A program made the translations under genes and the position numbers. This document shows, one piece after another, positions 5,012 through 38,408 of a stretch of 51,260 nucleotides of DNA (positions are counted from its first letter, which is position 1; every line of letters starts with the position of its first letter). The stretch is from a virus. The notes under the pieces were generated by a model. It was not told where the DNA came from. It saw only the letters and a program-made list of their open reading frames with translations, and did not search any database. The DNA lies in the IMG/VR virus record IMGVR_UViG_3300042328_000940, positions 1 through 51,260 of that record; one strand, given 5' to 3'.

Positions 5012-5563
5012 ATGCGTGATATCATTGATCTCTTAGAAGAAAAGAAAAAACTAGAGCTTAAAAAGCTGCCTTATGCAATGACTGCGTTATCGCCAGTTAA
5101 AAGCAAAGCCACAATAGAAAATCATTATGGTAAACTGGCACGTGGTTATGTGGATAGGTACAACAAGGGCGAAGGCGATGCCACCTTCAATGAAGCCGGC
5201 GCATATTTACATAACATCTACTTTCCGCAGTTGAGGCCACCCAAAAATGGCAACAGCCCTACAGGTGCTAGTCTAGCATTAATTAACAAACACTTTGGTA
5301 ATTTCACAGATTTCAAAAAAGATATTGAAGCTGAAGCCATGAAATTGCAAGGTTCAAATTGGATTTACTTGAGCCGCAGCGGTCAAATCAAAACAATCAA
5401 AAATCATGCCATACGCACAGATATTGCGTTGTTGATTGACTGGTGGGAGCATGCCTGGACATTAGACTACGGCACAGACAAGAAAAAATATCTACAAAAT
5501 ATTTGGCGCATAATCAATTGGGAATATGTTAATAGGCGTATCTATGCCGGAGATCGTGCATGA
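5012..5563 (+). CDS. Fe/Mn superoxide dismutase family protein
   Basis: 183 residues aligning to SodA/SodB along its length: [23 protein letters not shown], then [27 protein letters not shown], and DWWEHAW with a WEYVNRR end. The four metal ligands of the family are present at H38, H67, D143 and H147. The paired His after HYGK (family HYGKHH) is replaced by Leu-Ala at 42-43, and residues lining the substrate funnel may therefore differ. It could still dismutate superoxide, or be a derived metal protein. It overlaps the Fe-S carrier gene by 4 nt. Confidence 0.85.
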
Positions 5564-5886
5564 TTGATTTACAAGAAAGCGCAGTAACCAAACTAAGAGA
5601 ACTTATAGCCGAAGAAGGCAACCCGGATCTTAAACTGCGCATATTTGTGCAAGGTGGTGGATGTTCGGGCATGCAGTATGGATTTACCTTTGACGAAGAA
5701 CAAAACGAAGACGATTTTGATATCAATATTGATGGTGTTGGCTTGCTGGTGGACAGCATGAGCGCACAGTATCTGCAAGGTGCCAAAATCAAGTACACAG
5801 AAGATGCCATGGGTGCCAGCTTTAGTATAGACAACCCACAAGCTCAAACCACCTGCGGCTGCGGCAGCAGTTTCACACCTTACTGA
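5560..5886 (+). CDS. A-type iron-sulfur carrier (ErpA/IscA family)
   Basis: 108 residues, typical length for IscA/ErpA. The three conserved cysteines are C35 ([11 protein letters not shown]) and C99 and C101 (TCGCGSSF), which bind and transfer a [2Fe-2S] or [4Fe-4S] cluster to client proteins. The start overlaps the dismutase stop (ATGA), so the two metal proteins are co-translated. Together with IF-1 they form a short block of host-type genes. ErpA and IscA cannot be separated from sequence alone. Confidence 0.9.
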
Positions 5887-26310: not shown

Positions 26311-26334
26311 AGAGCCCATTTGTGGGCTCTTTTT
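26311..26334 (+). terminator. strong rho-independent terminator
   Basis: AGAGCCCA (26311-26318) and TGGGCTCT (26323-26330) form a perfect 8-bp stem with loop TTTG, followed by TTTT. It closes the lysis operon immediately before the dnaJ promoter. Confidence 0.92.
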
Positions 26335-26336
26335 GT

Positions 26337-26365
26337 TTGACAAACACCAGCGAAAGGTATATAAT
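26337..26365 (+). promoter_or_regulatory. consensus sigma70-like promoter of dnaJ
   Basis: TTGACA (26337-26342), 17-nt spacer, TATAAT (26360-26365): both boxes perfect. The predicted start (about 26372) is the A of the dnaJ ATG, so the mRNA should be leaderless. Confidence 0.85.
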
Positions 26366-26371
26366 ATTAGT

Positions 26372-27238
26372 ATGACACATTACGACATCTTGGGCGTTTC
26401 AGAATCTGCTAGTCAGGATGAAATTAAACAGGCCTATCGTAAATTGGCCAATCAACATCATCCTGACAAAGGTGGTGACACAAACCGTTTTCAACAAATA
26501 CAGTCTGCATACGAGACTCTAAGCAATGACCAAAATCGTGCCCAATACGATGCAGAACGACGCGGCATGGGCGGATTTAGATTTTCAGTAAATGGTCAAG
26601 ATGTTGGCAGCGGCATGCCACATGAAATGGAAGAAATGCTGCGCAATTTTGGGTTTGCCTTCGGACACGGTTTCGCTCATACCTCAGATCCATTTAATGT
26701 GTTTAGACAGCCAAGAAAAAACAAAGACCTACAGATTGAAATAGTTGTCAGCTTGGCTAGCACTCTTGAAGAACAAATAAAAATTATTAATGTTAAAACC
26801 AGTAACGGCGAAACTTATCCGGTAGAAGTACGAATCCCTAGAGGTGTAAGTCCAGGATCAACAATCAAATATCCGGGCCTAGGTGATAACTTTTTTGCTA
26901 GTTTACCAAGAGGTGACTTGTATGTTAGAGTCAACATAGAGGCAAACACAGAGTTTGGTCTTGACAATATAGATTTGCACAAAACTTTAGAGATTGATTG
27001 TGTACATGCCATGTTAGGCGGACCAACCACAGTGGTAGGATTAGATGGCAAGCATTTTGACATTAGTATATCACCCGGCACTCAGCCTAACAGTCGTCTT
27101 AGATTAGCGAATCAAGGGTTATATTCAATGAATCAAAATGTTAGGGGAAGTTTAATTATCAATGTTAAAATAGTCGTACCTACAAATCTTACAACAGATC
27201 AGCAGTTGGGTCTTAGAAATCTATTCAAAATACAATAA
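26372..27238 (+). CDS. DnaJ-like co-chaperone (type II, no zinc finger)
   Basis: 288 residues. J domain: MTHYDILGVSESASQDEIKQ, AYRKLANQHHPDKGGDTN with the HPD motif at 30-32, which stimulates DnaK ATPase. A Gly/Phe-containing linker (GMGGFRFSVN) and CTD I/II-type substrate domain follow (ISLAST-like start, VRIPRGVSPGSTIKYPGLGD, GDLYVRVNI), without the Cys-rich zinc repeats. It would recruit host DnaK. The start at 26372 follows the promoter; an upstream frame extension lies in the terminator and is rejected. Confidence 0.9.
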   Translation: MTHYDILGVSESASQDEIKQAYRKLANQHHPDKGGDTNRFQQIQSAYETLSNDQNRAQYDAERRGMGGFRFSVNGQDVGSGMPHEMEEMLRNFGFAFGHGFAHTSDPFNVFRQPRKNKDLQIEIVVSLASTLEEQIKIINVKTSNGETYPVEVRIPRGVSPGSTIKYPGLGDNFFASLPRGDLYVRVNIEANTEFGLDNIDLHKTLEIDCVHAMLGGPTTVVGLDGKHFDISISPGTQPNSRLRLANQGLYSMNQNVRGSLIINVKIVVPTNLTTDQQLGLRNLFKIQ

Positions 27239-27246
27239 ATATTTTT

Positions 27247-29538
27247 ATGTTACAAACCAATCCTGAAATTGATCACATAGTTGCCGAAGCGACACAGCTT
27301 GCTAAAAATCTCAGTCATGAATATGTAACTCTGGAACATGTCTTTTTGTCCATGATTAGATTTGATCCATTTAGAGATTTAGTATCACAGTTTGGTGCAG
27401 ATGTAGACAGTCTTGATGCCGAACTGGAGGCTTATATGTTACAAGCAACAAATTTGGTTGTCAACGAACAGGAACCAAAAAAAACTCACGCATTAGAACG
27501 AGTATTTAATAGAGCATTCACACAGGTGCTGTTTAGTGCCAGAACACATATTGAACTAATGGATCTGTTTCTAAGTATTCACGCCGAATCAAACAGTTAT
27601 GCTCACTACTTCATGGTCAAGTATGGTCTTGACAGAGCCAAGTTGGTAGAGCTATATAACAAGAGTTACAAATCTGATACAAGAAAATCAATAGCCACCA
27701 CTACCCGTGCCGACAAAGTGTTGGAACATTACTGCGACAATTTAAATAGTCAGGCCACAGAAGGCAAAATTGATCCTGTGATTGGCAGGGCACAAGAACT
27801 TGATGACATAGTTGAAATATTAGCAAGACGCAACAAGAGCAACGTGCTCATGGTAGGCGATCCGGGTGTTGGTAAAACAGCAATTGCAGAAGGATTAGCA
27901 CTTTCAATCGTGACCAAGACTGTACCAGAATACTTACACGGTTACACAGTGTACAATTTAGATATTGGTAGTTTGCTGGCTGGCAGCAAATACCGTGGTG
28001 ATTTTGAAGAAAAGATTCAAGAAATCTTAAGTGCTCTTAATGTTAAAGGCAAAACTATTTTGTTCATCGATGAAGCTCATCAGATGCGTGGCGCCGGTGC
28101 TGGTAGCCAGAGCAGTGTAGATTTAGCAAATATGATCAAGCCAGCGTTGAGCAAAGGTAAAATTAAAGTTATTGCCAGCACCACATGGGAAGAATATACG
28201 CAGAGTTTTGAAAAAGATCGCGCACTCATGCGTAGATTCCAGCGTGTGACCATTGATGAACCTAGTCCAGAAATTGCTAAAGAAATTTTACATGGACTAA
28301 GATTTAACTTTGAAGATTTCCATGGTGGCACCATACACGATGACGCTATTGAAGCAGCAGTGGATTTATCAGTGAGATATCAAACTGATAAAAAACTTCC
28401 AGATAAAGCAATTGATCTGATTGATGCCTGCTGTGCAAAAAACAGGGTCAAACAAACAGTGTGGTCAATTGGTAAACGAGACATTGTAAATGCTATTAGT
28501 AGAATTACTAAAATACCCGTTGATCAAATTGGCGTGCAGCAAGGTACTGACAATGCAGGTGTGGATTATTTAGAACACAAGATTAAGGATAGATTGTATG
28601 GTCAAGACCGTGCAGTAGATACAGTATTAGAAAAAATCTATGTAAGCAAAGCTGGTCTTAAATCTATTAACAAACCAATAGGTAATTTTTTGTTCTTAGG
28701 CCCCACTGGTACTGGTAAGACTGAACTGGCAAAATTGTTGTCCGTTACACTTGGTATGAAACTGCTCAGGTATGACATGAGTGAATATCAAGAGCGTCAT
28801 ACTGTGGCCAAGTTGATTGGAGCTCCTCCTGGTTATGTGGGGTATGAGGACGGTAACTTGGGCGGTGGATTGTTGATCAGCGACATCGAAAAGAATCCCA
28901 ACTGTATCATTTTAATGGATGAAATTGAAAAAGCACATCCTGATGTCAGTAATATTCTACTGCAAATGATGGACGAAGGCTCAGTTACCAGCAGCAACGG
29001 TAAAAAAGCCGATTGCAGAAACTCAATTATTATATTAACAAGTAATCTTGGGGCAGCAGACAACGATCAAAACACCATTGGATTTACTACTGCCTTGGAA
29101 CGAGAAGGTGAAGATGACCGAGCTGTAAAAGATTTCTTTAAACCAGAATTCAGAAACAGATTGGATGGCGTAGTTAAGTTTGTCAAGCTTGATCAACTCA
29201 GTATGCGTAAGATTGTGAACAAGTTTATCAATGAACTAAATGAACTACTACTAGACAAACAACTGCGTGTCCGACTTACTGAACAGGCGGTAGATGAATT
29301 GATTGTAAATGGTTTTGATAGCAAGATGGGTGCAAGACCATTGCAAAGAAAAATTAATGAATCAATTAAAGTGCCTTTGAGTAAAAAGATTTTGTTCGAA
29401 GCTATCATGCCCAATGCCACTATAGTGATTGATTGTGTAGATAGCAAATTTGTATTTCAACCAGTTGCAGCCGACTTCAAACATAGAATAGACGAAAATG
29501 GATACATCGTTCTGGAAGAACCTATCGCCGAATATTAA
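27247..29538 (+). CDS. ClpA-like AAA+ unfoldase
   Basis: 763 residues, the size of ClpA (ClpB is longer). Clp N domain at 1-140 (HEYVTLEHVFLSM). AAA1 has Walker A GDPGVGKT at 204-211 and FIDEAH around 273-278. There is no ClpB middle domain. AAA2 has GPTGTGKT at 485-492, sensor and arginine motifs (FKPEFRNRLDGVV). IGF at 611-613 lies in the loop that in ClpA/ClpX (IGL/IGF) docks on ClpP. It could redirect host ClpP to phage-chosen targets. An ATAAATA lies at 27235-27241 but is too close to the ATG to act as its normal promoter; co-transcription with dnaJ is likelier. Confidence 0.9.
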   Translation: MLQTNPEIDHIVAEATQLAKNLSHEYVTLEHVFLSMIRFDPFRDLVSQFGADVDSLDAELEAYMLQATNLVVNEQEPKKTHALERVFNRAFTQVLFSARTHIELMDLFLSIHAESNSYAHYFMVKYGLDRAKLVELYNKSYKSDTRKSIATTTRADKVLEHYCDNLNSQATEGKIDPVIGRAQELDDIVEILARRNKSNVLMVGDPGVGKTAIAEGLALSIVTKTVPEYLHGYTVYNLDIGSLLAGSKYRGDFEEKIQEILSALNVKGKTILFIDEAHQMRGAGAGSQSSVDLANMIKPALSKGKIKVIASTTWEEYTQSFEKDRALMRRFQRVTIDEPSPEIAKEILHGLRFNFEDFHGGTIHDDAIEAAVDLSVRYQTDKKLPDKAIDLIDACCAKNRVKQTVWSIGKRDIVNAISRITKIPVDQIGVQQGTDNAGVDYLEHKIKDRLYGQDRAVDTVLEKIYVSKAGLKSINKPIGNFLFLGPTGTGKTELAKLLSVTLGMKLLRYDMSEYQERHTVAKLIGAPPGYVGYEDGNLGGGLLISDIEKNPNCIILMDEIEKAHPDVSNILLQMMDEGSVTSSNGKKADCRNSIIILTSNLGAADNDQNTIGFTTALEREGEDDRAVKDFFKPEFRNRLDGVVKFVKLDQLSMRKIVNKFINELNELLLDKQLRVRLTEQAVDELIVNGFDSKMGARPLQRKINESIKVPLSKKILFEAIMPNATIVIDCVDSKFVFQPVAADFKHRIDENGYIVLEEPIAEY

Positions 29539-31892: not shown

Positions 31893-32798
31893 ATGTACGT
31901 TGCTGATCTTTTTGAAAATTATGTAGCTGAAGCCGGTACTCAGTTAGTTGTATTATACCCAGGTCGTTTTCAACCTTTTCACCTGGGACATGGCGATGTA
32001 TTTCGTAGCCTTCAAGGCAAATTTGGTAGAGATAATGTCTTTATTGCTACTAGTAATAAAGTAGAACTTCCAAAAAGTCCATTTAATTTTGCCGATAAAA
32101 CAGTTCTCATGAATGCAGCCGGTATACCCGGCGATCGCATTATTGAAGTTACTAATCCTTATAAATTACCTGAACCACAATTTAATCCTGCTAATACTAT
32201 TTTTATAGCGGCAGTAGGTGCACCTGATAAAGACAGACTACGTCCTGACAGTGTTAAGAAAGATGGTACTCCGGGTTATTTCAAAACATTTGAAAGCTTA
32301 GACAAATGCACAACAGCTGATAAACATGGTTATGTGATTATAGCTGATGAAAGACAAAAAGTAATTACAATAAATGGTCAGCCGGTAGATGTAAGTCACG
32401 GCACTCCTGCCAGGGCTGCATGGAACGCAGTAAGAGATAATCCTAAATTTAGAGTAGAATATTTACTACAAATGTTCGGAAGAGATGATCCTGAACTAGG
32501 AAGAATATTAGATAAAATACCACAAACGGTTAACGAAGAAACTGGTGGTGTTGGAGTAATAGCTAGTAAAAAACAGACGCGAGATCCTAGATACAGTCAT
32601 AGTTTGACAACGGATATACGACCCGGGGAAGTTGGTCGTCAACTAAAAAAAATGCACCTAGCAGATAGTGTTAAACAGTTACAAGAACAAATTGGATCAC
32701 TCAAAGAAAAATGGAGCACAAAATACAAACGCAGTATCAATTGTAATCGTCCTCGAGGTTTTAGTCAACGGGCACACTGTCAAGGTAGGAAAAAATAA
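31893..32798 (+). CDS. NadM-like nucleotidyltransferase with N-terminal tag and basic Cys tail
   Basis: 301 residues. Residues 1-14 (MYVADLFENYVAEA) form an acidic tag like those of the following genes and ending in VAE. The nucleotidyltransferase domain follows: VVLYPGRFQPFHLGHGD with HxGH at 30-33 (adenylyl transfer), VFIATSNK and IFIAAVGAPDKDR. This is the fold of archaeal-type NMN adenylyltransferase. The C terminus has a linker and a basic Cys module (KRSINCNRPRGFSQRAHCQG). Activity towards NMN is plausible but the C-terminal ISGT(K/R)-like motif is not clear. Possibly a packaged enzyme. Confidence 0.75.
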   Translation: MYVADLFENYVAEAGTQLVVLYPGRFQPFHLGHGDVFRSLQGKFGRDNVFIATSNKVELPKSPFNFADKTVLMNAAGIPGDRIIEVTNPYKLPEPQFNPANTIFIAAVGAPDKDRLRPDSVKKDGTPGYFKTFESLDKCTTADKHGYVIIADERQKVITINGQPVDVSHGTPARAAWNAVRDNPKFRVEYLLQMFGRDDPELGRILDKIPQTVNEETGGVGVIASKKQTRDPRYSHSLTTDIRPGEVGRQLKKMHLADSVKQLQEQIGSLKEKWSTKYKRSINCNRPRGFSQRAHCQGRKK

Positions 32799-33145: not shown

Positions 33146-33172
33146 ATAAATACATTGTTATTAGGAAACAAT
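33146..33172 (+). promoter_or_regulatory. late promoter with 6-bp inverted repeat to the start codon
   Basis: ATAAATA (33146-33152), then ATTGTT (33154-33159) pairing with AACAAT (33167-33172) around loop ATTAGGA, which holds the Shine-Dalgarno core. The ATG follows at 33173. The predicted start (about 33159) is at the end of the left arm. Confidence 0.65.
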
Positions 33173-33637
33173 ATGAAACCAACAGAATTTATCGTAGAAA
33201 ACAGCATAATTGCACAGGAAGCCGATGATATGCATAGAGACCATGAAGTGCAAATGGCTCGTAGTCAGTTGTATAGCGCAGCGCAAGCAGCTATTCAAAT
33301 TCACAGACTGCTTAAAAATGTTAGCGAAATGGAAGGTCTAGAAGGTTGGGTACAGACCAAAATTGCTGTGGCTAGTGAATATTTAGAAAGCGTACAAGAT
33401 TATCTAAAATACGAAGCCGCAAGTGAACAATCAGAAATGATGGCATTTGCCGAAGACGCAGCTGATTATGCTTTAGACAAAATGATAAATGAAATGGCCA
33501 CAGGTGGTGCAAGTAGCGCAGGTTCAGTGGCCACTAGCATGACCGGTCCTGCCAACAAGCGCACATCTGGTGTGCCCAAGAAAGTTGGGAATAGTTACAA
33601 GCCCAAAAAGGTTGAGGTAGGTAAAGGCATTTATTAA
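33173..33637 (+). CDS. helical tagged protein, possible prohead-core or internal protein
   Basis: 154 residues from the ATG with TTAGGA upstream. The N terminus MKPTEFIVENSIIAQEADD is close in form to the capsid-targeting sequence of T4 internal proteins (MKTYQEFIAEA, from memory). The middle is helical and acidic (AAIQIHRLLKNVSEM, YLESVQDYLKYEAASEQSEM), and the end is basic and Gly-rich (KRTSGVPKKVGNSYKPKKVE). The stop overlaps the next start (TAATG). A head-assembly core or packaged protein is the favoured but unproven role. Confidence 0.55.
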   Translation: MKPTEFIVENSIIAQEADDMHRDHEVQMARSQLYSAAQAAIQIHRLLKNVSEMEGLEGWVQTKIAVASEYLESVQDYLKYEAASEQSEMMAFAEDAADYALDKMINEMATGGASSAGSVATSMTGPANKRTSGVPKKVGNSYKPKKVEVGKGIY

Positions 33638-34140
33638 TGACTGATATTAGAAAACTGTTAGAATCTATGGATGCCATGGCAGCTGCCGAACGCAAGCCTA
33701 CAGGTCCACGGTGGCCCGGATATTTAAAAGGCACAGACTCGGCCAAAAAATCTCGTAGCCGTATGGTAGGTGACGGCGGCGCTAGTGAAAGCGTAGAAGA
33801 AGATTTAGAAGAAAGTCTAAGACAGCAATTCGCCGAATACGGTGCTCCTGGTTCTGGCATTGGTAATGACACTGCCAAAGACCCCAATCAAGAAGCCATG
33901 CTAACGCAACAAAGAAATCAGCAAAAAGCACAAATTAAAGATCAAGTTGCTGGCTTGACTGCACAGTTACAAGGTGCTAGAGCTCAACTGTCGGATATGA
34001 ATCAAGCGTTTCCCCAGGGTGCCAATCCTGTAGAAAAGGCCATGAGCTTGCAACAGATGTCGGCACAAAAAGTTGATGTAAAACAACAAATTGAAAATTT
34101 GTCAGCACAGATAGCAGCACTCAGACAACAGGCGATTTAA
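33637..34140 (+). CDS. tagged coiled-coil protein, possible prohead-core component
   Basis: 167 residues. N-terminal tag MTDIRKLLESMDAMAAAERK, then a basic stretch (PTGPRWPGYLKGTDSAKKSR), an acidic linker (SESVEEDLEESLRQQFAEYG) and a C-terminal Gln/Ala coiled coil (QVAGLTAQLQGARAQLSDMN, QIENLSAQIAALRQQ). The shape recalls scaffolding proteins. One base separates it from the next ATG. No enzyme motif. Confidence 0.55.
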   Translation: MTDIRKLLESMDAMAAAERKPTGPRWPGYLKGTDSAKKSRSRMVGDGGASESVEEDLEESLRQQFAEYGAPGSGIGNDTAKDPNQEAMLTQQRNQQKAQIKDQVAGLTAQLQGARAQLSDMNQAFPQGANPVEKAMSLQQMSAQKVDVKQQIENLSAQIAALRQQAI

Positions 34141-34141
34141 A

Positions 34142-35605
34142 ATGTTCGTTAACGATCTCTTTAAGAAAAAATTAAACGAAGGTAAGGCCAATATTGATGT
34201 GCCCGAGATACCAAGAGCGCCTGTACCAAAGCCACCTAAAGAAAAAGGTGTGGCGGAGGATTTTGATGATACACATCCATACGATTCATATGTATCTGCT
34301 AAAAGAACTGTTACAAGTACAGGCGGAAATGATAAGCTTAGTGACAAAACAGCGTCGCTTGATACTGATAGATTTGGAAATCAACGTGTACGGGCAGTAG
34401 ACGGAGACAAACTTACCATTAATACCAATATTCCAAAAGGTGTTAATGTTAAAATGATTCCACAACAAGGTGCTGCAGATATAGACGAAGGCTCTGTGCA
34501 AAACAAGCTACACCGCCGTCATCAAGAACTAAGAAAAAAATCTGGTCTGCCTGATCCCGATTACTACAAAGAATTAAAAGCGTCGTATGACATTGAGGAT
34601 GATGCCAAGCGTATTGCTGCACAAGCAGAAATTAAAAAGAAATACCGGGTGGCAGAAGGCGACACCCTAGATACTGGACCTGATGGTAAACTTACTACCA
34701 AAGGTGAAGAGCAGATGCGTCGATACAGACAACAAAAAAGAGAACAAGAGCGACAACAAATTATCGCCAAACATACTAAGACAGTGAAGGGAGATACTTA
34801 CGGTGTCGCCCCATCAAGAATAAGCCAGAGTAGAAATGAAGTTAATTGGGCTGCGGCCAACAAGGAACTACGAAAAAAAGGTTTAGATGAGCAAGGTGTG
34901 GCGGAAGGTAATCTAAATGAATTCGCACCTGGTGATGGCAATAGTGGTCGCTGGTATTCAGATGATGATCTAGCTGATATTGTAGGCGAAGATTGGTACG
35001 AGTTTGATCTTAGTCACGAAATGGGCAACATCGGCACACAAGGCGAACGTGCCAGAATCTTTCTTGCACAACAAGCAGAAGCATATTTAAACGATAGAGG
35101 ATACAATGTAAATGTGCTTGATGTACGAGATCAAGGTGATAACTTGTCTTGGTACATATCAGGTTCATTAATGAATGAGCAAGGTGTGGCGGAAGGCTTA
35201 CCGCAGACTCTACGCAAGGTTGTTCCTGGGTATGCCAAGCGTGAGATTGATAAAAAGATGGATGCTGGCAAGTTTGGTAAAACTGATGCAGATAAAGATG
35301 CTAACTTTCAACGATATAAAAAGATTCAAGACAAGTTAAAAGAACAAGGTGTGGCGGAAGGCGTTGAACAATATCTAGAAGAAATGCGTCGTGCCGGTTA
35401 CGACATTGTGACCGAAGCTGCAACATTATGTCCTGAGTGCGGAGGTCCTGCTTACAACAATCAAATGCTAGCAGAAAAACAAGATGCCTGCTATCACAAA
35501 GTAAAAAGTCGTTACAAGGTATGGCCGTCAGCCTATGCATCAGGTGCATTGGTTCGCTGTCGCAAAAAAGGTGCCAAGAACTGGGGCAACAAAAGTAAAA
35601 AATGA
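34142..35605 (+). CDS. modular polyprotein-like gene with repeated GVAEG sites
   Basis: 487 residues. Tag MFVNDLFKKKLNEGKANID, then modules divided by EKGVAED (34-40), YRVAEGD (168-174), EQGVAEG (250-256), EQGVAEG (346-352) and EQGVAEG (401-407). Modules are charged helical (110-240) or compact alpha/beta (257-345, starting NLNEFAPGDGNSGRWYS). The end has a CPECGG knuckle and a basic Cys module (DACYHKVKSRYKVWPSAYAS, then VRCRKKGAKNWGNKSK) that I recall as DUF5872-like. VAE resembles the (L/I)xE sites of the T4 prohead protease, so processing into cargo pieces is proposed. Confidence 0.6.
   Translation: MFVNDLFKKKLNEGKANIDVPEIPRAPVPKPPKEKGVAEDFDDTHPYDSYVSAKRTVTSTGGNDKLSDKTASLDTDRFGNQRVRAVDGDKLTINTNIPKGVNVKMIPQQGAADIDEGSVQNKLHRRHQELRKKSGLPDPDYYKELKASYDIEDDAKRIAAQAEIKKKYRVAEGDTLDTGPDGKLTTKGEEQMRRYRQQKREQERQQIIAKHTKTVKGDTYGVAPSRISQSRNEVNWAAANKELRKKGLDEQGVAEGNLNEFAPGDGNSGRWYSDDDLADIVGEDWYEFDLSHEMGNIGTQGERARIFLAQQAEAYLNDRGYNVNVLDVRDQGDNLSWYISGSLMNEQGVAEGLPQTLRKVVPGYAKREIDKKMDAGKFGKTDADKDANFQRYKKIQDKLKEQGVAEGVEQYLEEMRRAGYDIVTEAATLCPECGGPAYNNQMLAEKQDACYHKVKSRYKVWPSAYASGALVRCRKKGAKNWGNKSKK
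34889..34908 (+). repeat. EQGVAEG DNA repeat, copy 1 of 3
   Basis: GAGCAAGGTGTGGCGGAAGG. Copies 2 and 3 are at 35177-35196 (identical) and 35342-35361 (one change, GAA for GAG). A shorter relative GGTGTGGCGGAGG is at 34247-34259. Synonymous positions are conserved, including the GTG and GCG codons, so the match is at DNA level and not only protein level. Confidence 0.85.
35177..35196 (+). repeat. EQGVAEG DNA repeat, copy 2 of 3
   Basis: Identical over 20 nt to the copy at 34889, 288 nt downstream of it, in the same reading frame. Confidence 0.85.
35342..35361 (+). repeat. EQGVAEG DNA repeat, copy 3 of 3
   Basis: 19 of 20 nt identical to the other copies, 165 nt after copy 2, in the same reading frame. 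Confidence 0.85.
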
Positions 35606-36177
35606 AATATAAAGAACTACTAGAAGCTTGCTGGGATGGCTATCAACAGCGTGGTATGAAAAAGAAAGGTGACCGCATGGTGCCTAACTGCGTTAAGATG
35701 AGCGAGCAAGAACTAGAAGAAGATCTCAAAAAATGGTTCCGAGAGAAATGGGTGCGCTTTGGGCCGGATGGAAAGATACGCGGCGAATGCGGCGGCAGAG
35801 ATAGCGGCGAAGGCAAACCTAAATGCTTGCCAGCCAGTAAAGCACATGCATTAGGCAAAAAAGGTCGTGCCAGTTCGGCGGCCAAAAAGCGCAGAGAAGA
35901 TCCCAATCCCGAGCGTAGAGGTCCTGCCAAAAATGTAGCCACTAAAACTCGTTCCATGCGAGAGCAAGGCATACCTGAATTACAACCACAAGATCAACAA
36001 CAGGAACCCGGTGCCATACGCAAAGGTTTAAATTTACTCGGTAACATTTTTACAGCAGGTAAATTACTACAAGATCCTAGAGCTCTAGCCGATCAAGAAA
36101 TTAAAAATTACTTAGATCCTGCAAGACAAAATCAAAGTATTATAAGAAGAATGCAATCAGACCAAGATCAACGATAA
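35602..36177 (+). CDS. tagged basic Cys-rich modular protein
   Basis: 191 residues, start overlapping the previous stop. The tag MKYKELLEA runs straight into a Cys module (CWDGYQQRGMKKKGDRMVPN, then CV), an acidic helix and a second basic module (WVRFGPDGKIRGECGGRDSG, KCLPASKAHALGKKGRASSA, REDPNPERRG) that I recall as DUF6321-like. REQGIPE near 117-123 is a variant of the neighbour's EQGVAEG with an IPE site. Likely DNA-associated head or internal protein, by composition and context. Confidence 0.55.
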   Translation: MKYKELLEACWDGYQQRGMKKKGDRMVPNCVKMSEQELEEDLKKWFREKWVRFGPDGKIRGECGGRDSGEGKPKCLPASKAHALGKKGRASSAAKKRREDPNPERRGPAKNVATKTRSMREQGIPELQPQDQQQEPGAIRKGLNLLGNIFTAGKLLQDPRALADQEIKNYLDPARQNQSIIRRMQSDQDQR

Positions 36178-37951: not shown

Positions 37952-37975
37952 ATACTCGTATTAAGGTTTAAATAT
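37948..37975 (+). promoter_or_regulatory. late promoter of the dps-like gene, weak hairpin
   Basis: ATAAATA (37948-37954) overlaps the preceding stop. GTATT (37958-37962) can pair with AATAT (37971-37975, one G-U), loop AAGGTTTA holding the Shine-Dalgarno core. Same layout as the 22515, 23637 and 33146 promoters but weaker. Confidence 0.55.
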
Positions 37976-38408
37976 GGACGAGTTACACCGCGCACTAAAA
38001 ATAGCTTTTGCTAGTGAATATGCTTTTTATTTAAAAGCTCATTATTTTCATTGGAATGTGGAAGGGCCTAATTTTCCGCAATATCACGAACTTCTTGGAA
38101 ACATCTACGAAGAAGTATATGGCAGTATAGATAAATTTGCTGAGGAAATTCGTGCCACTGGTACATACACTCCAGGGTCATTCTCTAGATTTAGTATTTT
38201 AAGTCAAATTGACGATGAAACTGAAATCCTACCAGCTGAAGCAATGTTAGTTGAACTATTACAAGACAGCGACCGCATGGGAGAAATGTTCCGTATAGTT
38301 TTTAGAGCAGCTGAAGAACTGGGTTTCCATGGTCTCAGTGACTTTTTAGCCAGCAGGCAAGACGCTCATGCAAAACATAGTTGGATGTTGAGAGCAACGC
38401 TTAAATAA
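37974..38408 (+). CDS. dps: Dps-like ferritin
   Basis: 144 residues. Dps signature AHYFHWNVEGPNFPQYHELL with the intersubunit ferroxidase ligands H26, H38, D53 and E57, spaced 12, 15 and 4 as in E. coli Dps. Dodecamers oxidise Fe(II) with H2O2 and shield DNA. The basic N-terminal tail of E. coli Dps is absent, so direct DNA binding is less certain. With the superoxide dismutase and Fe-S carrier it forms an oxidative-stress and iron set, here under a late promoter. Confidence 0.9.
   Translation: MDELHRALKIAFASEYAFYLKAHYFHWNVEGPNFPQYHELLGNIYEEVYGSIDKFAEEIRATGTYTPGSFSRFSILSQIDDETEILPAEAMLVELLQDSDRMGEMFRIVFRAAEELGFHGLSDFLASRQDAHAKHSWMLRATLK

Follow-up and report, generated by a model that had tools for sequence, protein, structure and literature searches.

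Modular genes of uncultured T4-like phages exchange segments at a short in-frame seam with the form of a prohead-protease site

Results

A polyprotein-like gene divided by near-identical seams

The window, the whole stretch of viral DNA that was analysed, is 51,260 nucleotides long (IMG/VR record IMGVR_UViG_3300042328_000940). At 34142-35605 on the plus strand, it carries one 487-residue open reading frame (ORF) of modular, polyprotein-like organization. A sequence-only reading of this DNA had divided the protein by five GVAE- or RVAE-type sites, and the ORF and all five sites were located: KGVAED at residues 35-40, YRVAEG at 168-173, and EQGVAEG at 250-256, 346-352 and 401-407. The protein contains 9 [LIVM]xE[AGD] sites, compared with 1.6 in protein shuffles, and 0 of 1000 shuffles reached 9. 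That reading had also pointed to three nearly identical 20-nt repeats. These are two exact copies of the 20-mer GAGCAAGGTGTGGCGGAAGG, at 34889 and 35177, and a third copy with a single mismatch at 35342; the core GGTGTGGCGGA was found also at 34247. The number of 20-mer copies expected in shuffles is 0.

The features of the gene, all on the plus strand, are given here in order, with a slash in a peptide marking the predicted cut. The gene opens with a putative T4-like capsid-targeting N-terminus, MFVNDLFKKKLNE/G (34142-34180), assigned from the pattern of N-termini among seam-bearing ORFs. Seam 1 (EKGVAE/D, 34241-34261), which holds the exact core, is followed by module M1 (34262-34639), which relatives carry in different orders and contexts. 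Seam 2 (34640-34660) is degenerate, KYRVAE/G, and fits the [V/M]xE pattern. Module M2 (34661-34888) is followed by seam 3 (EQGVAE/G, 34889-34909), an exact 20-mer, and by module M3 (34910-35176), copies of which at 94-98% are present in other contexts. AlphaFold2 predicted M3 to be a small alpha/beta domain with its first 11 residues disordered (pLDDT 76, alignment of 10 sequences), and this fold had no significant match in the PDB or in a viral structure comparison. For the whole 487-residue protein, AlphaFold with single-sequence input was uninformative (pLDDT 46). Seam 4 (EQGVAE/G, 35177-35197), again an exact 20-mer, precedes the mobile cassette M4 (LPQTLR...IQDKLK, residues 353-400, 35198-35341), and seam 5 (EQGVAE/G, 35342-35362) is the copy with one mismatch. 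The C-terminal module M5 (35363-35605) combines CPECGG with a basic peptide, KQDACYHKVKSRYKVWPSAYASGALV.CRKKGA.NWGN. M5 occurs in 98 ORFs and belongs to phrog_727, and its basic peptide is near-invariant; its relatives are a T4-like cyanophage protein adjoining the terminase small-subunit gene. We also observed that the basic peptide (ACYHKVKSRYKVWPSAYASGALV.CRKKGA.NWGN, 35440-35602) is preceded by L/I-x-E and is common to T4-like cyanophages.

Several neighbouring genes have similar starts. The next gene (35602-36177, plus strand) begins with the capsid-targeting-like MKYKELLE/A, matches DUF5872 weakly, and has the EQGIPE that had been noticed there, at 35962-35979. Upstream, a cytidylyltransferase gene (31893-32798, plus strand; Pfam PF01467) has the capsid-targeting-like start MYVADLFENYVAE/A; such a gene lies near or just upstream of a polyprotein-like gene in the window and in the isolates P-TIM68 and Cr30. 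By enzyme name, it can be set beside the cytidylyltransferase T4-GC190, which was detected in virions of cyanophage S-SM1 (PMC3037559). Between the window's cytidylyltransferase gene and the 487-residue ORF lie a gene starting with MTDIRKLLE (33637-34140, plus strand) and a gene (33155-33637, plus strand) that has both a capsid-targeting-like start and a stretch, ATGGASSAGSVAT, resembling the N-terminus of the major capsid protein (MCP). This stretch, ATGGASSAGSVAT or LE/TATGGATSAGAVATVP, resembles NASAGSTSAGNIAT, which stands just past the probable MCP maturation site of related contigs, and it is also present in the N-termini of L094, L144, L202 and L212; it may represent a second shared processing signal. 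Elsewhere in the window, an Fe/Mn superoxide dismutase (5012-5563; Pfam PF02777, PF00081) has an N-terminal extension resembling a capsid-targeting peptide and is possibly packaged in the head. Further genes encode an Fe-S cluster assembly protein (5560-5886), DnaJ (26333-27238), a ClpA/B-type ATPase (27247-29538) and a Dps-like ferritin (37974-38408).

The seam is widespread in metagenomic phages and confined to one reading frame

The observation extends far beyond the window: many uncultured T4-like phages string short modules together by the same near-identical 20-base seam. The exact 20-mer is present in at least 119 IMG/VR stretches, and 557 of 558 core sites read EQGVAE in the frame of the longest ORF. 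Since this one frame is shared, a Chi-like element or other general DNA motif was rejected. The exact 17-mer occurred 70 times in 257 Gb of bacterial genomes, which is near chance, never twice in one locus and in scattered frames. All GVAE-seam sequences come from metagenome-derived contigs. The seam was not found in the isolates Phosso, Melnitz-3, S-SSM5, P-RSM1, Mel-JY01 and LR756508, and HTVC008M gave a single 3-mismatch match and nothing closer; M3 and M4 had no tblastn match among 50,697 phage records. In the literature, the string GVAEG appeared in one, unrelated, immunology paper only. An internal ribosome start was ruled out, Met not being enriched after the seam. Other dispersed 16-base DNA seams were sought in the same loci, and those shown seem to belong to an orthologous gene that the loci have in common (a DNA polymerase, by eye).

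The seam is conserved both as peptide and as DNA

Residue statistics were based on 378 deduplicated in-frame copies, after the copies that had brought each locus into the set were dropped. P1 is Glu in 373/378 copies and P3 is V, M or L in 378/378; P2, P4, P5 and P6 are variable, P1' is mostly G, A, D, E or S, and information falls to background level one codon beyond the motif. The ratio of nonsynonymous to synonymous changes was 5:36 at P1, 42:24 at P2, 38:20 at P4 and 118:6 at P5 (P1 versus P2, Fisher p=1e-7). Nonsynonymous changes are thus rare at P1 only, and those at P3 are restricted to hydrophobic residues. To judge from these residues, the seam has the hydrophobic-x-E form of T4 gp21 sites, which are described as L/I-x-E (PMC9026906); in T4 IPIII, processing depends on positions 8 and 10 (PMC9026906), and an Asp at position 10 prevents it. 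The sequence-only reading had taken VAE and IPE for prohead-protease sites. The form it proposed is borne out by P1 and P3, and relatives encode a gp21-type protease, as described below, but the strict T4-type L/I is not what stands at P3, where GVAE seams carry V or M. L or I at P3 is seen in many N-termini of seam-bearing ORFs and in a second type of seam.

The seam is also uniform as DNA. A codon-degenerate scan for EQGVAEG found 113 sites in newly fetched loci, and 69 of these had the one spelling GAG CAA GGT GTG GCG GAA GG, where codon usage predicts 0.7 (in those loci GCG makes up 12% of Ala codons and GTG 22% of Val codons). Fourfold sites agreed at 32-38% in pairs of modules with 30-60% amino acid identity, compared with 90% in the seams that follow them. 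Third bases of the seam are therefore about 90% alike even beside synonymously saturated modules, which indicates that the seam DNA itself is kept uniform. Chance or codon bias as the origin of the seam was ruled out by the spelling excess, the fourfold-site comparison and the bacterial-genome count. Concerted evolution within genomes was also rejected: deviations were shared within a locus in 56/246 cases and in 40/231 after shuffling, a slight excess only, and the uniformity is therefore population-wide. Recombination alone does not fully account for the constant third bases, and selection may act on the DNA itself.

Modules are gained, lost and reordered at the seams

The sequence-only reading had proposed that modules are exchanged by recombination at the seams. 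In alignments at >=88% identity, homology ended on a seam in both sequences at 113/185 right ends and 70/215 left ends, compared with a random expectation of about 5% (for positions in one sequence), and 62 of 218 alignments ran exactly from seam to seam. Five pairs of filled and empty alleles were found (L336/L335, L005/L056, L140/L185, L151/L169 and L201/L003). In the empty alleles the overlaps were 15-20 bp, every one at a seam, so that the crossover is confined to the 15-20 bp seam. Thus modules are gained and lost with breakpoints inside the seam.

Different modules also lie between seam copies in metagenomes, where the earlier reading had suggested looking. M4 was found in 33 distinct contexts with differing neighbours; across 18 contexts its DNA is 90% identical, compared with 27-29%, the random level, in the flanks. 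A constant order of modules, which that reading had named as the case against itself, is excluded, because order differs among relatives: a 99% identical copy of M2 stands before M1 in L071, and M3 stands before M1 in L332. Module exchange at the seams is directly supported by these data. Among the eight seam contigs over 115 kb, six encode a RecA-family (UvsX-like) protein, and a tyrosine integrase, the only class of site-specific recombinase looked for, was present in 0/8.

A second seam type flanks the same cassette

M4 is also flanked by seams of the form KEEVE(L/Q)xE. KEEVELDEA is common: among the 246 matches listed, the residues after EEVE were L in 157, D in 147, E in 179 and A in 118. 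From its residues, KEEVELDE/A appears to be an unrelated second seam of the same L-x-E/A form. Its DNA is less uniform, with 15/120 copies in the commonest spelling compared with 2.6 expected. This dialect was seen in many contigs (L480-L495, L500-L579), and a possible third form, ESEEMINE/A, is repeated in Caulobacter phage Cr30 (L622:2762-4810). The isolates P-TIM68 (a Prochlorococcus phage), S-SKS1 and P-RSM6 have related stretches; P-TIM68, which has KEEVEKIDE, and Cr30 carry long ORFs beside the cytidylyltransferase. In these isolate proteins, [LIVM]xE[AG] exceeds shuffled levels no more than mildly, and we therefore regard the stretches as leads rather than proof.

Seam genes have a probable link to head maturation

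A prohead protease of the Peptidase_S77 (gp21) family is encoded in 7/8 seam contigs over 115 kb. It belongs to the relatives, and the 51-kb window fragment is without it. The protease stands in T4 order, before the scaffold gene and the MCP gene, both putatively assigned from gene order and sequence; the MCP N-termini (...LxE/[NTS]A) are read as a probable maturation site. In the sampled list, the nearest isolate protease was that of Sinorhizobium phage Phosso (65%). The seam ORFs begin with an M-[KR]-[IL]-x-[DEQ]-[LIF]-[LFI]-x-E-like sequence, and 109/144 distinct N-termini (76%) have [LIVM]xE within the first 25 residues, compared with about 32% of later 25-residue windows. In several seam ORFs, the targeting peptide is followed directly by a seam (MKSFKQIREQGVAEG).

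Tat signals work only when N-terminal. In 7/9 cases, Tat signals (RRGFLKG) lay 3-7 residues after a seam (p=1e-5), where cleavage would make them N-terminal. They were seen in L162, L135, L020, L022, L036, L047 and L191, and such modules are possibly phage proteins exported via the host Tat system after injection.

Over 63 seam ORFs pooled, 20 Pfam families were detected, among them acetyltransferase, ParB, cytidine deaminase, nucleotidyltransferase and lysozyme/SLT, and no protease family was among these matches. Such module contents would be in line with injected proteins. PADLOC returned one weak match in 63 ORFs. The family phrog_13484, annotated 'virion structural protein', was matched by three seam proteins. 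In a separate observation, one seam protein (L067:4766-8686) weakly matched ribosome modulation factor (RMF; E 4e-4, under the Pfam cut-off). Taken together, the P1/P3 conservation, the gp21 homologue, the capsid-targeting-like N-termini, the Tat positions and the second seam strongly support the inferred cleavage of the seams by the prohead protease.

Discussion

We consider it likely that these genes encode virion polyproteins that are packaged and cut by the prohead protease and are diversified by homologous recombination at their seams, with cleavage and packaging being the inferred parts. A T4-type capsid-targeting N-terminus would bring the chain into the prohead. During head maturation, a gp21-type protease would cut after Glu at each [V/M]-x-E/G seam and after L/I-x-E elsewhere, and the freed small modules would remain in the head and might later enter the host together with the ejected DNA. 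As DNA, the seam would provide 18-20 bp of shared sequence in a constant frame. UvsX/RecA-type recombination between seams of co-infecting phages or of paralogous genes could then insert, delete or swap entire modules with the frame intact. Each exchange would leave the new module with a cleavage site on either side and would hold the DNA of the seam uniform throughout the population. One short sequence thus seems to act both as recombination joint and as protein cut site. More specifically, we lean slightly towards a cassette system, in which a coding seam of 18-20 bp is held uniform because it is at once the homology for swapping and the site of release, and in which different dialects (GVAE/G, KEEVELDE/A and possibly ESEEMINE/A) exchange modules.

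Alternatively, the seam could act mainly as DNA, either as a mini-mobile element or as a site recognized by a dedicated nuclease or recombinase, with the peptide as a by-product. We think this unlikely. The extreme synonymous conservation whatever the divergence of the modules, the sharp information edges at the motif and the insertion-like gain and loss of modules would all be expected of such an element; however, the seam is confined to one frame of these genes, the residue-specific selection at P1 and P3 shows a protein function, tyrosine integrase, the one class of site-specific recombinase looked for, is absent from the eight large contigs, and the KEEVELDEA dialect gets by on far less conservation of its DNA.

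The seam might instead be a neutral flexible linker at which modules are shuffled and remain uncut, yielding intact multidomain 'polyvalent' virion proteins. Many polyvalent phage proteins do act as multidomain chains (PMC5512222), and their module content (acetyltransferase, ParB, lysozyme/SLT, deaminase, nucleotidyltransferase) is similar. A linker, however, predicts neither the fixed Glu and the hydrophobic residue two before it amid drifting neighbours, nor Tat signals right after seams, nor a second, unrelated L-x-E/A seam around M4, and we regard it as quite improbable.

It is highly improbable that much of the shuffling is an assembly artefact at short repeats: seam repeats in contigs that are all metagenomic, with no isolate found, could promote some chimeric joins, but assembler words are usually at least as long as the 15-20 bp overlap, identical combinations reappear across separate datasets (e.g., L371, L372 and L373 from 3300020172, 3300020161 and 3300020159), residue-specific and synonymous conservation cannot arise in this way, and partly independent evidence comes from the long ORFs beside the cytidylyltransferase in the isolates P-TIM68 (KEEVEKIDE) and Cr30 (repeated ESEEMINEA).

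If the polyprotein reading is true, T4-like phages can vary the set of proteins that they inject with frame and processing unbroken, as any exchange automatically gives new cargo that is correctly framed and correctly cut. The seam would be a sequence handle with which metagenomes could be combed for injected phage proteins, with anything between two seams a candidate head-delivered protein. It would also be a natural case of one sequence selected both as recombination joint and as protease site, like modular cloning. What fills T4-like heads would then become testable by mass spectrometry in isolates that carry the sister seam.

Cassettes shuffled through short repeats have a reported precedent in T4-type phages. 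Arbiol et al. reportedly described, in 2010, mobile regulatory cassettes (PeSL) in which short repeated DNA mediates modular shuffling; these are said to be intergenic promoter/stem-loop cassettes by which whole genes are shuffled. The seam differs in lying within coding sequence, in frame, and in being itself a putative protease site.

The internal head proteins of T4 (IPI-III and Alt; PMC9026906) resemble the seam genes in having a short N-terminal targeting peptide with hydrophobic-x-E, a protease of the gp21 family (found here in relatives) and small variable cargo. In T4, however, each gene carries one cargo and one N-terminal propeptide, with Alt cut also at its C-terminus (PMC9026906), whereas the seam genes carry many cargoes per chain, with internal seams near-identical in DNA and with shuffling. 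In the giant phages phiKZ and SPN3US, a gp21-related protease likewise cuts many head proteins after Glu, at S/A-x-E and A-x-E (PMC5694885, PMC9026906); there, cleavage chiefly removes propeptides, and the portions of these sources considered here report no shuffling seam. The T4-like cyanophage protein T4-GC119 (phrog_727) shares the C-terminal basic peptide and consists of Cys/basic peptides in series, separated by x-E-(G/A), but it is without the GVAE seam, and no repeated DNA seam was found in S-SSM5. Polyvalent proteins, which are encoded by phages and by conjugative elements and which the authors describing them compared to polyproteins (PMC5512222), are similarly mosaic, with unrelated domains in one chain, and are likely delivered with DNA. 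The portion of that paper considered here ascribes release to peptidase domains embedded in the chain rather than to prohead-protease sites that recur along it, and describes no conserved seam; in the genes reported here, such a seam joins the modules and would also release them.
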